Below, in pieces: positions 17,679 through 29,542 of a DNA stretch of 64,000 bases. The stretch's first letter is position 1, and every line of letters begins with the position of its first letter. The notes under the pieces are model-generated. The model was not told the DNA's origin, did not search any database, and saw nothing but the letters and a program-made list of their open reading frames with translations. A program made the position numbers and the translations under genes. Source of the DNA: Ilyonectria destructans (taxonomy: Eukaryota; Ascomycota; Sordariomycetes; Hypocreales; Nectriaceae); NCBI GenBank assembly GCA_020740775.1, contig JAHEWK010000007.1:2418001-2482000 (forward strand), written 5' to 3'.

Positions 17679-19663
17679 ATGTTGCCTGCTCCATTAACGA
17701 CCCAAGGGGCCCGCAGTCCGTCTTCAACCACCCTCGCTACCCGAGAGAGCTCCGGGTCAACTAGACCCACTAGCTTCTCAGCCCTTTCCATAACCTCTCC
17801 AGCGTATGTTACGCGGCAAGCGTATGGGGATTGGTATCTCGAAACCCCGAGAAATCGGGGAGTAAGGTTTGTGCTTAAGCACGGTAATCGATGCAGCAAC
17901 TGATGACCCCTTCTACAGATGGGCCGATCCGGCCAAGAGCGCGTACGACTCGGCCATCGAGGTCCTCCGGAATGAACCCGGACTCGATGATAGCTATTTG
18001 GTATGGGTGCGTGACAAGACGTCTATGGCTAACGTGCAGGATGCTCTAGAAAAGGCCGTGAAAGAATATGAAAACAAGGCCGAAGACTCCAAGGTTCGAC
18101 AATGGTTAGCGAGCTGTTCATCGCGAGTCTTATACTATGGAAGTCAGTTCGTTCCCTGGTGGATTGCTTATTCGAGGGAGGATGCTGATTGTTCTCCGGC
18201 CGAGTAGCAATTTTTGATGTTTACGCCCAACATCATCCCGAGTACGTGTCTTTGGCTTGGGGCGCATTCAAGTTCCTTTTCATCGTAGGTAGAGCGGAAA
18301 TATCCAACGCCGAGCAGGGGAATTGTCAGTTAACATACCGTAGGCTGTGTTGAATCACGAGGAACTTCTTGTTGAGTTGGCCAAAGCCATCTCGCGGATC
18401 GCCGATGTTCTCCCCCGAACTGAGTTGCACGCGGGACTCTACCCGACAGAGAGAATCCAGCAGGCAGTGTCCATGGTCTACGCAAAGATTATCGAGTTTA
18501 GCATCAGGGCGATCAAGTGGTACAAGAAAAGCAAACTCAAGCACAGCATCTCATCAATCGTGAAACCCTTTAGCCTCAGCTTTAAGGATATCATCGACGA
18601 CATTTCGGAGCGGTCGCGAAGAGTGGATGAACTGGCTAGTGCGGCGGCTAAGGCGGAGATCAGAGATCTCCATATCAACGTCCATCACTTAACTCAAGGG
18701 TTCAATGAGTTAAAGGAGATCATAATCGGTGAGTGCATCGCACATTGTGTTTCCACATGAGACAGAGAACTAAGGCATCCGTAAGCTTCCCAACTCCAAC
18801 AAAGTCAGATCATGATTGACCTGCGGGACCAGAAACAATTCTTCTGTAACAATCAGATTGAGGACATGAAGAATCTGTTGCTGGATAACACGACGCCGCC
18901 CAAGGACAATCTAACCTACTGCAGTTCGATGCGCAACCGTCGTAGACGGAGAACTCCTGTCCAACTCCCGCCGCCAGAGCTTCTAAAATTTAAGGCCTGG
19001 CTTTCTAATCCATCTTCCTCGCTCCTCCTTGCCCGGGAGCAAAGTGTTAGAACCAGCGCACTGGACTTCGCTACTGGCTTCCTTGACGCTGTTCTTGAAG
19101 GAAACTATTCCGCTATCTGGGTCCTACCATCTGCTGGCGGTGACTGCCAACCATCTCCTTCAGTCACAGGTGTGCTGAAGTCTCTGGTCTTACAAGCTCT
19201 GACTATAAATCGAAACGGTATGAGCGAAGGAGCCCACCCTGTACGGATGCAGCACCTTGGGAGCGCGGTTACAATCGAGCAGTGGTTTAAGGTCCTGGAG
19301 CGGTGCTTACGCGACATACCTCGGCTTCTCATCGTGATTGATATGAGACTAATTGAAATGGCCGTGGACCATGACGAGGATGAGCATGACTGCTTTAGAG
19401 TGAGCGACTTCGTTCAAATGCTTCATGAGATAGTGCAGAATCGGGCAAGGGGAGGGTTGAAGATTGTGATAGTCTCATGGAGATTCAAGACGGCCACTTT
19501 GGCTGAGGCTGAGGAAATATTTGGGGACGAGCAGATCTTCACGGATGGGGGTCGAAGGATGGAGAAAATGATGAGGCAGCCGAGATATAGGGCAGTATTA
19601 AAAAGAGACCACGTGAAGTTCACGCAGAGACTCAAGGTAATAATCCAGGAGTTAGACAATTAA
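17679..19663 (+). CDS. DUF7708 domain protein (NLR-like architecture without a P-loop), copy A
   Basis: Model: join(17679..17803,17919..18142,18208..18284,18344..18728,18786..19663), 562 aa. The N-terminal region is Ser/Thr-rich. The DUF7708 core reads WADPAKSAYDSAIEVL, SRVLYYGT, VYAQHHPEYVSLAWGAFKFL, 'LNHEELLVELAKAISRIADV', IKWYKKSKLKHSISSIVKPF. A coiled region and MRNRRRRR follow. The C-terminal half resembles a degenerate NTPase-like segment (SSLLLAREQSVRTSALDFA…AIWVL…LLIVIDMR) with no GxxxxGKS/T motif. DUF7708 is usually found at the N-terminus of fungal STAND/NACHT proteins. It pairs with the divergent AAA gene. The fourth intron has an AAG acceptor and is less sure. Confidence 0.8.
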
Positions 19664-20018: not shown

Positions 20019-20825
20019 TCAAGCGCTGCCTTCCGCTGCGTTCATCTCTGGAAGCACCAACATGTCTTCGTCAGATATATACTTGATATCGACCTGCTCC
20101 TCTTCTCCTTCCTCCTCGTCTTCATCGCTATCACTCTCCCTGCTATCGCTCCCCAGTAGCGTCCCATCCTGAACCACCTTCGTCTTGGTCACTTTCTTCA
20201 ACCATCCCTTTCTTGAAATCTCCAGCATCATGTACGCAAAGACGCTCTCCCCATTCACGGACCCTTCGTGCAGATATCCCGTGCTCCCGAGATAAAAGAG
20301 ATAGCCGCCAATTGTAACATGTTCGTTTGGACTCCCATGCCCGTCGACAGCCGCACCTGTACGCTCGCCTTGCACGATCTTGTACTGCAGGATGTCGGCA
20401 TATTTGACCCCGACAACCATGTACACGGGTGCCTTGTCGATGCGCGCCTTGAGTGTTGGAGAGGAGGTTTCAAAGGCGCTGATGAACTTGAGTATGTCGA
20501 CGCTCAGCTCTTCAGTGACGACGCGCTTGGAGGAGAAGCTCATGGCCTTGTCATGCGCGTGGCCGGCCTCTACTTGAAAGCCAAACGTACTCAGGAACTT
20601 GGCCCAGAGGGCGACGCCCCATACCTTTGCCTTGTGGTGGACCAAGTCCTTGATGGCTTGTGGCGGGCCAACGGATTTCTGTACCAGCGCAGCGGGAGCT
20701 TGCGCAATGGGGAATTCGTAGACCTTAAGGGGATGTTCGAATACGGCGCCGAGTTGGATTTTGCCGTCACGGCCGTTGCCGAGTGGGCCAGGAATATAGA
20801 GCGTCGGAGGTGCGGCGACGGACAT
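20019..20825 (-). CDS. Candidate fungal gasdermin-like (HET-Q1/RCD-1 type) protein
   Basis: 268 aa from ATG 20825. The frame is open further up, but only from a GTG and behind an acceptor-like CAG, so 20825 is preferred. The N-terminus (TLYIPGPLGNGRDGKIQLG) and the beta-like segment APVYMVVGVKYA resemble what I know of the fungal RCD-1/HET-Q1 gasdermin family, as does the length (about 250-280 aa). There is no signal peptide. The last ~50 residues form a Ser/Asp/Glu-rich tail (SDSDEDEEEGEEEQ…) that could be a removable C-terminal inhibitory piece. It is head to head with a subtilisin-like protease gene, the known genomic arrangement for this family. In that family, proteolysis frees an N-terminal part that permeabilises membranes and kills the cell. 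Assignment rests on pattern and context, not a computed alignment. Confidence 0.55.
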   Translation of the reverse strand: MSVAAPPTLYIPGPLGNGRDGKIQLGAVFEHPLKVYEFPIAQAPAALVQKSVGPPQAIKDLVHHKAKVWGVALWAKFLSTFGFQVEAGHAHDKAMSFSSKRVVTEELSVDILKFISAFETSSPTLKARIDKAPVYMVVGVKYADILQYKIVQGERTGAAVDGHGSPNEHVTIGGYLFYLGSTGYLHEGSVNGESVFAYMMLEISRKGWLKKVTKTKVVQDGTLLGSDSRESDSDEDEEEGEEEQVDIKYISDEDMLVLPEMNAAEGSA

Positions 20826-21840
20826 GTTCAGAGGTTGTGAGGTATCTGCAATGGTGGGTTTCACAAGATGTTGAGAGAATGTTTTAAGGCCTGCTGGTCA
20901 CGTCCTTCAATAATCTTGTATTTTCTGTCTAGCTGCTGGTGCCAACGCTGTCGAGTTGGTGCTTGGATGCCTGGCCGGCCGCCTTGAATGCGACGCGCGA
21001 TGAGAGCGACCCATTGCGACCCATTGCGACCGACAGAAACGCAGCTGGTGTGTGTCATCAGCCCCTTCAAGCCATCATTGGACAACGCCAAGCGAGGGTG
21101 TAGTTGTCTCGTATTGACGTCACAACTGTCTAGATGTGCTTTTTCTGGAGGCGGTGCTGCACCGCCATCTTACTCGGTCGAACCCCCGTGGCTAGCCTTC
21201 TTGGCACAATCAGGGCGGGCGTGAGGCTATGATGACTCCATACTTGCTATACTTGTCAAGATCATAGTGTAACCGAATACAATGGTACTAGTGTTGTCTT
21301 CGGTTCTCGTGGCTCAACGTGACCCTTTGATATGAAGCTGCCACTGGCGATATTGGGAAGCTGAAGAATTGATTGTTCAACTCATCCACCCCGCGTGCCT
21401 TCTTCCGGCCTTTTCAACGAGCGGGGTACATACCTTCCGGGCGCCGGTCACTGTGATGGGCTTGAGACTATTGACGCCCGCATCGGCAATCGTGTCAGTT
21501 GGGCTGCCATCATTCGCCCATAAATCGCTCAGCGTTTAGCACGATTTGCCTAGTCCTCATGCGGACAGCCCCAAAAGGAACATGTGCATCGAGCCTTCAA
21601 GGGTGGCAAGCGGGAAGTGCTGCTGAAACGAGGCTCAGCCGTCTGGAGTTTCCCTGGTCCTCAAGCCTGCTTTTGAAATCCCGAGAGGCCGAGGATGACC
21701 GTCACACACACCACCATCATCGCTCTTCACACAAATATTTATATCTGACAGCACCTCAATCGGCTTGTCTCATGATTGGATAATACCGAATAGGATCCAA
21801 CGTTGATTGACTAATACTCAACTGACATCGCTATTCGGTT
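20826..21840. promoter_or_regulatory. Divergent promoter region of the gasdermin-like and protease genes
   Basis: 1,015 bp between the divergent starts. A CAG acceptor about 25 bp before the 20825 ATG (minus strand) suggests a 5'UTR intron. No specific sites are recognised. Confidence 0.35.
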
Positions 21841-24800
21841 ATGTCTCTGACTCGCGAAGAGGCCAAGAAAGCATTGGAGACGTTAGCTGAAACGGCTTCC
21901 ACGATTGCCCTTGAACTATCAAGGTCAACTTACGATGCCCAGACTGTTCGGTCTGACCAAGCTAGGGGGCTACGAAAATTGGCCTCAAGGCTAGCAGTCT
22001 TTGTCGAGAGGAGCTCAATGACGACCGAGCCGTACGACTTGGAGATTTTAGAGCTTGTGAAACAGGCAATTTCCGTGAGTCAAACTAGGTCATGCTTGAG
22101 GCAGACATAGTGCTTACTTTGCCCTTCACCACTGCAGCCAGTGACACTAGCTTCGCTCATAGACCCCCAGGGTGGAATCAGCATTGAAGCCTTACTGAAA
22201 GACTCTTATTCGGAATTGAGGCCACAGGTCAATCGTCTCCTGACACGGCTGAGTGAAGACTATGCAACAGGTGTAGATCGGGAGATATTACTACAAGACC
22301 CCCAGCCAACTCAGCAATTTTTCCAACCCGTACAGTTACAAAGTGAGCAACGAAACCAAGTGCTACTTTCCGGACAATCGACCAACTAACTTCTCCCTCC
22401 AGCACCTGCCGACATAGAACTTGAGCTACAGCACGTATATAATGTCGTCAATGATACTGCGCACTGTAAATTGGCACATCAAAGACACCTGCGGCAATTC
22501 GATCTACGGCTACAGCCTCTCGAACTGGAGGCGTTTAACGCCGAGCTTATTTTCAACGCGCACCCAGTTTGTAGTGAAAGCGAAAGCGTATGTCTCCACG
22601 AAACCGAAATACGAGTTACCATGTGAGTGTGTATTTAGTCGAACTCTCCAGGCTGTCAGCGCCATACGAACGAGTGTCAAGGAAGGATATTTCCTACATC
22701 CTCTTTCTCCCCATTTTCTTGCCCTTAGCAACTATTATATGCAATCTGCTATAACAACCACTAAGTCGACTTAGGAATTCAAGTAACGCCGAGAATCACG
22801 GAAACCAGACGTACAGCCCGTGTTCCGGCATTGTAGAGGCTCATGGGAAACGACTCAGCCTTTCGCTCGTTATCGACCATACATTAGCCCACGAGGCACC
22901 AACACTATTCACTGGCGCCTCAACCTCAACTCTCCGAGATCTAGTCGCCGGAAACACCGCAGGGCAGTCGTTCAGCAGCTTTGTCAATAAAATAACCCCC
23001 TACGATGAAATTTCTCTTGCCTATATCCTCACCAAGTCAATTTGGCAGCTTTATAGCACAGACTGGCTCAATAGACCATGGACTGCTGATGACATTCATT
23101 TCTATGACTCGCAAGAGCATTTAAACTACAGTCGCGGAGGAGACATAGATCTTCTTCAAACATATCACCCTTACGTCCACGTCTTCTTACCACAATCTCG
23201 CATGGATATCGCAGCGATGGCACCACCTGGCTCACGTATCGACTACTCAGACGAAGGGAGCGAGTGGCAGGGACGCTCTTTCCCCGACGTTCTTGCCCTA
23301 GGGGTGCTGCTCATTGAGGTTCTTTGGAAGAGTAAGGTCATGCCGCAGAACGACGGCGCTTCGGCGTCGATTCACGGGAATCTAGCCAGATATCGCACAA
23401 TGGCCTTGGCCATTATTACCGAAGGTTTCCCCGGCGATTGCCAGTCGCTAGTTGAGGAGGGTTTTCGGGATATCCTGCAAAAGATCTTCCATAACAAGCT
23501 GTTCCAGGGCAAAGACGAAAGGGGGGACAACGGGAGAGCGACTCGGCGGGATATCCTCTTTCGATCGCTCCTAGAGCCTATTAAAAGATTGTACGAGGTG
23601 GGAGTAAAAGGTCGGATAAACAGAAATGGTCAGCTTGCGGTTGTCAGATCCAGCGAATGTGATCCCGGGAAGGCGACTACTGATTTTGACTACGGGATAC
23701 TCCTAAGCCAATTCGAAAAAGGCTGCGCAAACAGAAAGAGTCATACCAACATGTAAGTCTCAGCCAACCCATCCATTCTTACAGCTCCCTGGATAGGTCT
23801 GTTTTATCCATTCGCGTTTCTTCGACTGACTCTACACTCTTATTAGAGCACGAGCGATTACGGAGCTCCAGCAATTCCCAAGAATTAGTAGTTTCTTTAG
23901 AAAGCTGATGATGAACAAAGAGCCGTGGGAAATCAAGGACCCGATCCGAATTGCGGTCCTTGACACGGGTTGCGACCTCTCTGGAAGATTCTTCACCCGC
24001 AACGGCAACCCTGGCGAGGCGCAGCGGATTCGCTGGCATGACTTTGTTACACCAGGTCAGGCTGTGCCAACTGATGAAGACCCAGATAGACACGGCACCA
24101 ACATTGTGACGCTGCTGTTGATGCTACTGCCTATGTGTGAAATATTTGTTGGCCGGGTGGCGACCTCACAAGCACAACTCCCGGATTCGGTCCCCAACAT
24201 TGCAAAGGTATGATGGACTTGCCTTTTCAAAGAGGACAGAAAACCCCGCAAAAACGAAACACGTCGCTGACCATGTGCTTGGAAATAGGCCATCAGCCAC
24301 GCATCCACCGAATGGAATGCCCACATCATCACCATGTCGTGGGGTTTCGACGAAGAAAAAGGAGAAATCCGAGATGCAATCAACAACGCCTGGGCAAAAC
24401 GGCAGCAGCGCGTCCTCTTTTTTGCAGCTGCGAATAACGAGGGCTTTAGGGAGTCCGAATTATTCCCCGCCAGCCACTACGTGAACGTCATCTCGGTCGG
24501 TGGTGCCGAGAACGACGGCGAGCCCGCCAAGGGACTCTGCCCCAACCCAAAGCCCGAACACGACGAGGGCGTCTTCTCTGCCCTAGGAGTAGCCGTGCCG
24601 TGCGGAAATTGGGAGGATAAGCCTCCCGTAAAGTCCGGCGTAGGAGGAACCTCCATGGTACCGGTGGGCATGAGTGGTTGCTCCTTCGCCGCTCCGGTGC
24701 TTGCGGCGACAGCGGCCCTATTCCTCCATTACGCAACCTTTGCGGCACAGTACAGGCCTGAACACCAAAAGCGATTGCAAAAGGTGTTTGAACCGCAGGG

Positions 24801-24957
24801 GATGCGTCGTCTATTCCGCAATATTGGCCAGGTGAACAAGAGAACGAGCGTGAGACGATGGTTTGTACGACCCGCGCACCTGTTCAAGCCAAAGGCGGTC
24901 AGGGACTTGGACCATAGTGATCTGATTACAGAAATGATTAGCGCTTTGCGTTTGTAG
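21841..24957 (+). CDS. DUF7580-like / subtilisin (S8) serine protease, HET-Q2-like
   Basis: Model: join(21841..22074,22138..22342,22403..22622,22775..23752,23847..24207,24289..24957), 888 aa. The N-terminal ~540 residues are helical and match fungal DUF7580-type regions (LSLSLVIDHTLAHEAP; AYILTKSIWQLYSTDWLNRP; SFPDVLALGVLLIEVLW). The S8 domain follows, with Asp585 (AVLDTGCD), His628 (DRHGTN), the oxyanion Asn near 715 (AAANNEG) and Ser798 (SGCSFAAP), so the triad is complete. There is no signal peptide, so it should act in the cytosol. Splicing is needed to join the triad parts. It is divergent from the gasdermin-like gene, which is its likely substrate. The 152-nt third intron is unusually long; an alternative acceptor at 22816 is also in phase. 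Confidence 0.85.
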
Positions 24958-27985: not shown

Positions 27986-29542
27986 TCAACAATATTCAAT
28001 CTGGAAGGCGATGCCTAGTTTTTCTTCAACCTGACTGACGAATCGTCTGCAATCAGCACAAACAGCCCGACTCACACAAATCCTCGAAATCACTGTTGGA
28101 ATTCCGGGTTGAACTTTGACAAGTTCCTGCAGTTCCATGTGTTCTTGTGTCCATTCTCCTCTTTTATCTGGGGCGACACGGTTTATCAACACCTTTGGAA
28201 TCACCATGTGCTTGTCAACGTAATACGCAATAAGCTTCTTCTCAGCATGCGAAGCTAAGAAAGACCCAGGAGATGTTGCCTTATCGTATATGTGTGCGGG
28301 CAAGTCATAGTCGATCAGTATAGAGAGTTCCATAACTCGGCGCATCCAGAGCTCATTGTCGATAATGTCGTCGACGGAGAAATCAGTTCTCCAGCCACTG
28401 GCGGCGCTGACTATCGGGAACATCCTGCCCCGGTCCATTCGAGCGATGGTCTTCTTCTCGTCTGGGACAAGGTACGTAGTAGTGTGCTCATAGTATGTAA
28501 TCTCATGTTGTGATGAATTTTGTCCCGGAACATATCGGCCGGGTCTTGATTCCTGGTTTGTGCTAGAGTACCGGCCCGTGGTGCTGGGGGGCTCGTAGGG
28601 GCGTAATCTGATTGCAATGATTCTTCGATTGTCCTCCGCCTCGCTTTTTTCACTACACTCAGATGTCCATTGCCTCATCATTTTAGTGACTGTAGATGGC
28701 AGCGCGTAGAACAATGCATTTCTTCCTCTCCGGTCTTTGCGATCCGGATTGGCGCCATTGGCGAGCAAGAAGTCGACCACTCCTAATCTTCCCCACAGCG
28801 CTGCCTCCATCAAAGGCGTCCTCATTTCGTTATTGACATTGTTCAAGTCCCCACCTTTCTCGCAAAGGAATCGGATCATATTAGAGTGTCCTTCTATTGC
28901 GGCAAAGGAAATGCAATTCTCCCCAAGTCTATTTTTTGCGGCGATGAAAGGGTCCTGATAGGTTTTGGTAAGGTGCTCAACGCCATTGATGTCATCAGTG
29001 ATGCAACAGGAAAAGAACATCTCGAGTCTCCATTCAGGGTCCCGGTATTGGCTCTCCCAGAAATCTTCATTGTTTTCATGTGAGTCCGGCATCCCTTGGG
29101 TACTTTCAGAATCATGAACGGTGAGATTTTCCAGTTGCTCTTGCACCTCTTCCACGTCGTTAGTATCCGTCAGGATGACTTCTTCCTGATTATAAGACCA
29201 CTCCTCTTCATTGTCTTCAAGTCCTGTCACATCGACTGTGACGAAACAAGAATTTTTCTTGTCGAGCTCGTAGGCATACTCGGTTTTTGCCGGATCCTCA
29301 TATGGATAGCACATCTGGTACTGGCGCGAGCTGGGTTCTTCAAGACGTCGTCGATAACAGTGAGATTCACGCCTGTGACGTGTCCAAGGGTGATCACCAA
29401 CTCCATGGCGATGTATGCGTGAACAGTACGGGCAGTAAACTCGGACATCATGATCATTCCAGTCGATAACGAGGGCGAGTGGCACACGACAACCGTTGCT
29501 GTCGAGTAGTCCTTTTGGAAGGGACGACGGATCAGGCGGCAT
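27986..29542 (-). CDS. Ankyrin-repeat protein with C-terminal DYW-type deaminase domain
   Basis: 518 aa in one exon, started at ATG 29542 because the longer frame begins with TTG. Near residue 35 is a putative zinc knuckle (CPYC…H…H…C). An acidic linker follows, then two to three ankyrin repeats (~190-290: FAAIEGHSNMIRFLCEKGGD, TPLMEAALWGRLGVVDFLL). The C-terminus carries the deaminase signatures His432-Ala-Glu434 (SHAEKKLIAYY) and Cys495-x2-Cys498 (RAVCADCRRF), ending IEYC. This is the zinc-binding HAE…CxxC layout of DYW-family deaminases. That family edits C to U in plant organelle RNAs; fungal copies fused to ankyrins have been described in comparative genomics, but their substrate is unknown. 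Deamination activity here is inferred. Confidence 0.78.
   Translation of the reverse strand: MPPDPSSLPKGLLDSNGCRVPLALVIDWNDHDVRVYCPYCSRIHRHGVGDHPWTRHRRESHCYRRRLEEPSSRQYQMCYPYEDPAKTEYAYELDKKNSCFVTVDVTGLEDNEEEWSYNQEEVILTDTNDVEEVQEQLENLTVHDSESTQGMPDSHENNEDFWESQYRDPEWRLEMFFSCCITDDINGVEHLTKTYQDPFIAAKNRLGENCISFAAIEGHSNMIRFLCEKGGDLNNVNNEMRTPLMEAALWGRLGVVDFLLANGANPDRKDRRGRNALFYALPSTVTKMMRQWTSECSEKSEAEDNRRIIAIRLRPYEPPSTTGRYSSTNQESRPGRYVPGQNSSQHEITYYEHTTTYLVPDEKKTIARMDRGRMFPIVSAASGWRTDFSVDDIIDNELWMRRVMELSILIDYDLPAHIYDKATSPGSFLASHAEKKLIAYYVDKHMVIPKVLINRVAPDKRGEWTQEHMELQELVKVQPGIPTVISRICVSRAVCADCRRFVSQVEEKLGIAFQIEYC

Follow-up and report, generated by a model that had tools for sequence, protein, structure and literature searches.

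A gasdermin-like gene head-to-head with a DUF7580-subtilisin gene in Ilyonectria destructans: a probable two-gene cell-death cluster

We analyzed a 64,000-nucleotide stretch of the Ilyonectria destructans genome (hereafter the window; contig C67:2418001-2482000 of a 71.7-Mb, 74-contig assembly), in which two genes stand head-to-head with 1015 bp between their start codons (20826..21840), an interval that may act as a shared promoter. On the minus strand, positions 20019..20825 hold one open frame encoding a 268-aa protein that resembles fungal gasdermins. On the plus strand, positions 21841..24957 encode, in six exons, an 888-aa protease that joins a DUF7580 region to a subtilisin (S8) domain. 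A preliminary description of this DNA had proposed that the pair forms a cell-death module of the HET-Q1/HET-Q2 type.

The open reading frame (ORF) and hydropathy of the 268-aa protein agree with that description: it carries TLYIPGPLGNGRDG near its N terminus and PVYMVVGVKYA from residue 133 onward, and no signal-peptide-like stretch was found by a hydropathy score over 19 residues, used in place of a dedicated signal-peptide program (best average in the first 60 residues, 0.62). The position of PVYMVVG (residues 133-139; 20409..20429, minus strand) matches that of PVYMVTG in the gasdermin-like family. The frame is not a chance one, because it has relatives at 93% (Ilyonectria robusta) and 91% identity, both full-length, and more at 28-40%. 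The acidic tail, which had been put at about 50 residues, is borne out by residues 224-268 (20022..20156, minus strand), which carry a net charge of -16 in 4.96 kDa, while residues 1-223 carry +5. Of 32 family rows, 31 have a tail with a net negative charge, the exception (P0026) having just 10 residues in the tail region, and the charge of the core across these rows ranges from -11 to +5. Directly N-terminal to the tail lies Leu223, which is invariant in the 8-row subfamily of the window protein and falls a few residues past the final core strand of an AlphaFold model.

The protease model comprises exons 21841-22074, 22138-22342, 22403-22622, 22775-23752, 23847-24207 and 24289-24957, separated by GT/AG introns whose predicted splice sites were picked by hand from the reading frame and the GT/AG rule. 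It gives exactly 888 aa, with the catalytic residues at the positions previously reported, namely Asp585 in VLDTG, His628 in RHGT and Ser798 in SGCSFAAP. The Peptidase_S8 domain spans residues 579-813 (Pfam E 1.2e-15; 23944..24729, containing intron 24208-24288), and subtilisins in the PDB are weakly matched (best E 1.3e-4). The DUF7580 region (PF24476) was recovered by Pfam at residues 203-408 (E 2.8e-9, 37.5 bits against a 27-bit cut-off; 22570..23339, containing intron 22623-22774; the genomic places of both regions derive from the exon table). Residues 1-201 contain no Pfam domain above cut-off in a search that included HeLo-type domains. As had been stated, the protease has no signal-peptide-like stretch (best 19-residue average in the first 60 residues, 0.39), and its sole hydrophobic stretch, scoring 2.05 at residues 632-650, lies within the S8 domain. 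With its Asp/His/Ser motifs and a gene less than 10 kb from a gasdermin-like gene, it is, judged from its sequence, a Q2-like protease.

We searched Pfam, NCBIfam and the PDB with the single 268-aa sequence and found nothing credible; a cypovirus domain (E 0.17) and 1vl5 (E 0.11) were rejected as chance-level matches. A 4-row profile gave two chance-level PDB matches and nothing else, and bacterial and archaeal contigs, when scanned, yielded no relative. Searching the organism's own genome revealed a weak 277-aa paralogue (E 3.4e-4, 24% identity), adjoined by an S8 match above the Pfam cut-off. Used as a query, this paralogue retrieved ten places at E<=1 in the genome, the window's among them, and weakly matched RCD-1-1 (E 0.0041); a different paralogue matched RCD-1-2 directly (E 4.2e-6). 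Using hhalign, we compared the profile of the window subfamily (8 rows, 6 used) with that of 24 other fungal gasdermin-like family members and obtained 99.0% (E 4.6e-18); the two profiles have no common rows, and the 24 members come from searches begun with the window protein, so that their choice is not independent. Run against the open frames of the window, a family profile lacking the window subfamily found 20019-20825 as its sole match at E<=10 (1.5e-14). Against the PDB, a joint 15-row profile recovered RCD-1-2, RCD-1-1 and HET-Q1, with all five matches at E<=10 being gasdermins. The 32-row profile likewise gave eight gasdermins among eight matches at this threshold, five of them fungal sequences (E<=4.1e-9) and three bacterial (E 0.014-0.031), and the HET-Q1 pore entry 9uv9 was matched by the family profile.

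The AlphaFold model of the 268-aa protein is of middling confidence (predicted local distance difference test, pLDDT, 61), falling below 50 from residue 208 onward and thus including the tail; a model from 4 rows (pLDDT 29) was set aside. A Foldseek comparison of the retained model with the PDB returned gasdermins for all 14 matches at E<=0.001, with 9uv9 absent from the best 50 rows. RCD-1 is the nearest PDB entry both by sequence profile and by fold. By profile, then, the protein is homologous to RCD-1 and HET-Q1; its predicted fold is similar to that of a gasdermin N-domain, and its core is followed by a short C-terminal piece, the acidic tail of about 45 residues, for which we propose an inhibitory role. 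The gasdermin-like identity given in the preliminary description therefore held in both kinds of comparison, with RCD-1 returned by each and HET-Q1 by profile. The lack of a direct match in single-sequence searches and the moderate confidence of the structure model would suit a 268-aa protein that is no gasdermin and merely an unrelated chance neighbor of the protease, yet profile-profile and structure comparisons both give gasdermins and the pairing recurs genome-wide, which makes this explanation scarcely credible. Paralogue profiles and a protease neighbor can thus reveal a gasdermin whose divergence defeats single-sequence search.

This recurrence was assessed by counting as gasdermin-like any place that reached E<=1e-3 in one or more of five genome searches, each of which scored its best candidates only. 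The genome contains at least 17 such places, 14 stop-free and 3 with internal stops. Fragments are included (for example C67:602810-602992), C8:635242 (E 0.0025) is left out and C17:73340-73459 (0.007) is merged into C17:73426. The 50 S8 matches in the genome correspond to 44 loci. An S8 locus lies within 5 kb of 9 of the 14 stop-free places including the window's (8 of 13 without it) and of 10 of the 17 overall, the tenth being the C17:68980 piece with stops, whose S8 locus is common to it and C17:73426. Random placement of the 17 places gives an expectation of 0.11 and a maximum of 2 in 10,000 placements. At 5 of the 14 stop-free places no S8 match occurs within 10 kb. The nine S8-paired stop-free places comprise one divergent (the window's), five co-oriented and three convergent arrangements, as read from the listed strands. 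Catalytic-motif patterns were found in part at the other S8 loci; they are strict and blind to introns, and so uninformative on those loci. On the contig of the window, C67:921681-947862 holds two clusters of DUF7580, S8 and gasdermin-like genes in about 26 kb, and at L014 (C40:36100-46000) a gasdermin-like gene lies on a contig with no S8 match; its neighbors are a frame of the OrsD family and another that matches a hAT transposase below cut-off.

The pieces with stop codons (C17:68980-69476, C12:5915985-5916227 and C73:3158070-3158288) are signs of birth-and-death, a mode of evolution described for the fungal gasdermin family in the consulted sections of PMC10197012. An expanded family with such pieces on C73, C12 and C17 raises the possibility that the window pair is itself a decaying or neutral copy, intact-looking and yet silent. 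We regard this as very unlikely, given that both frames are open, the catalytic motifs are in place and full-length relatives share 93% and 91% identity with the gasdermin. A somewhat less remote alternative, though still an improbable one, is that the 268-aa gasdermin is activated by a divergent partner gasdermin and not by cleavage, the adjoining protease having another role. This is how Neurospora RCD-1 works according to the part of PMC12881547 consulted, which describes activation by the encounter of two allelic variants, without cleavage. RCD-1 is the nearest PDB match, and the genome has many gasdermin-like places; the S8 pairing, however, far exceeds random placement, and the window protein has the acidic tail expected in cleaved members.

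DUF7580 and S8 matches lie at most 4 kb apart at 8 loci, 7 of which, counting the window's, are next to a gasdermin-like place. The two are seen in a single protein in the window gene model and in the open frames L021:6298-8181 and L015:1756-3111 (S8 there slightly below cut-off), and are associated by proximity at the other loci. Among the 9 S8 loci next to stop-free gasdermin-like places, 7 have DUF7580, a concrete candidate for the sensor in the activators of fungal gasdermins. At the eighth DUF7580-S8 locus, L052 (C10:637000-644500), the A2 and A4 profiles found no gasdermin-like gene within 7.5 kb, and this locus may have another effector nearby or encode an orphan activator.

A 15-row DUF7580 profile gave weak matches to kinase domains in the PDB (best E 3.7e-4), MLKL entries included; among the best 60 of 91 matches, 59 are kinases or pseudokinases and one is neither; the possible homology to kinases is weak. 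Neither an HRD nor a DFG motif occurs in the 243-aa DUF7580 piece of the window, and across the 15 rows, counting triplets at any position in the sequence, HRD-like ones occur in two, DFG-like ones in two and both in none. The weak kinase matches and the missing motifs in the window piece therefore point, tentatively, to a pseudokinase as the proposed sensor half. A broader proposal, which we put forward tentatively and lean slightly against, is that DUF7580 is an MLKL/IRAK-like pseudokinase, a switch gated by a ligand or a partner that controls subtilisins, and that the pyroptosis-like module prevailing in this fungal lineage is the DUF7580-subtilisin-gasdermin cluster. If true, this cluster would couple a necroptosis-type switch with a pyroptosis-type executioner.

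Based on the family membership of the gasdermin by profile, its similar predicted fold, the catalytic motifs, the adjacency of the two genes and their recurrent pairing, we consider it very probable that the window pair is a two-gene gasdermin/protease cell-death cluster. In this model, the acidic tail would hold the 268-aa gasdermin inactive until the N-terminal region of the cytosolic protease, including its pseudokinase-like DUF7580 domain, senses a signal, upon which the subtilisin domain would cleave the gasdermin near Leu223-Leu224 and take off about 45 residues (~5 kDa). The released core would then oligomerize in the plasma membrane, presumably as a pore, and kill the compartment, possibly in defence or allorecognition. 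Leu223-Leu224 is a reasonable if unproven candidate cut site, because HET-Q1 reportedly loses about 40 residues after F238 (consulted part of PMC10989679). The triggers of fungal gasdermin activators are acknowledged as an open question in the sections of PMC12881547 consulted.

Two neighboring genes were also noted. About 3 kb past the protease gene, 27989-29542 (minus strand) encodes a protein of 518 aa that has ankyrin repeats and matches Pfam SsdA_C (E 2.5e-16), a family named for the C-terminal part of single-strand DNA deaminase toxin A. On the 3′ side of the gasdermin-like gene, 18812-19660 (plus strand) is a 283-aa ORF with no Pfam family above cut-off.

Among known systems, MLKL and other protein kinases have kinase domains that the DUF7580 profile weakly matches, whereas the DUF7580 domain in the window lacks HRD and DFG and is fused to a protease. 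RCD-1-1 and RCD-1-2 of Neurospora crassa are the nearest solved structures by profile and fold, and differ from the proposed module in being activated by allelic variants without cleavage. HET-Q1/HET-Q2 of Podospora anserina offers a gasdermin-like protein of similar length (278 aa versus 268 here) that ends in a short C-terminal piece, together with a subtilisin of the S8 type as its activator. In Podospora, however, the two genes are idiomorphs, that is, alternative genes at one locus (PMC12881547, in part), and HET-Q2 has just 388 aa (PMC10989679, in part), whereas here the genes lie side by side and divergent in one haplotype, with an 888-aa protease bearing DUF7580. The het-Q comparison thus fits the proposed mechanism and not the idiomorph arrangement, and the gasdermin/S8 pair of the preliminary description recurs in the genome above random placement. 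The consulted parts of PMC10197012 put the share of fungal gasdermin genes that cluster with a protease gene at ~80% (~63% with S8) and give 18 annotated architectures for the Q2-like (Q2L) proteases, together about one third of some 1500 sequences; kinase-like fusions of gasdermin-cluster proteases are mentioned in general in PMC12881547 (section 20 and Fig. 6 legend). The name DUF7580 is absent from the literature searched, which did not extend to the primary architecture paper, Clave et al. 2022. The window pair resembles the gasdermin and Q2L two-gene clusters in its adjacent gasdermin and S8 genes and in a protease fused to a further domain, and differs in its divergent orientation, unique among the nine S8-paired stop-free places of this genome. 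Taken together, these comparisons give good support to the view that the window pair is another example of an already known two-gene gasdermin/protease module.
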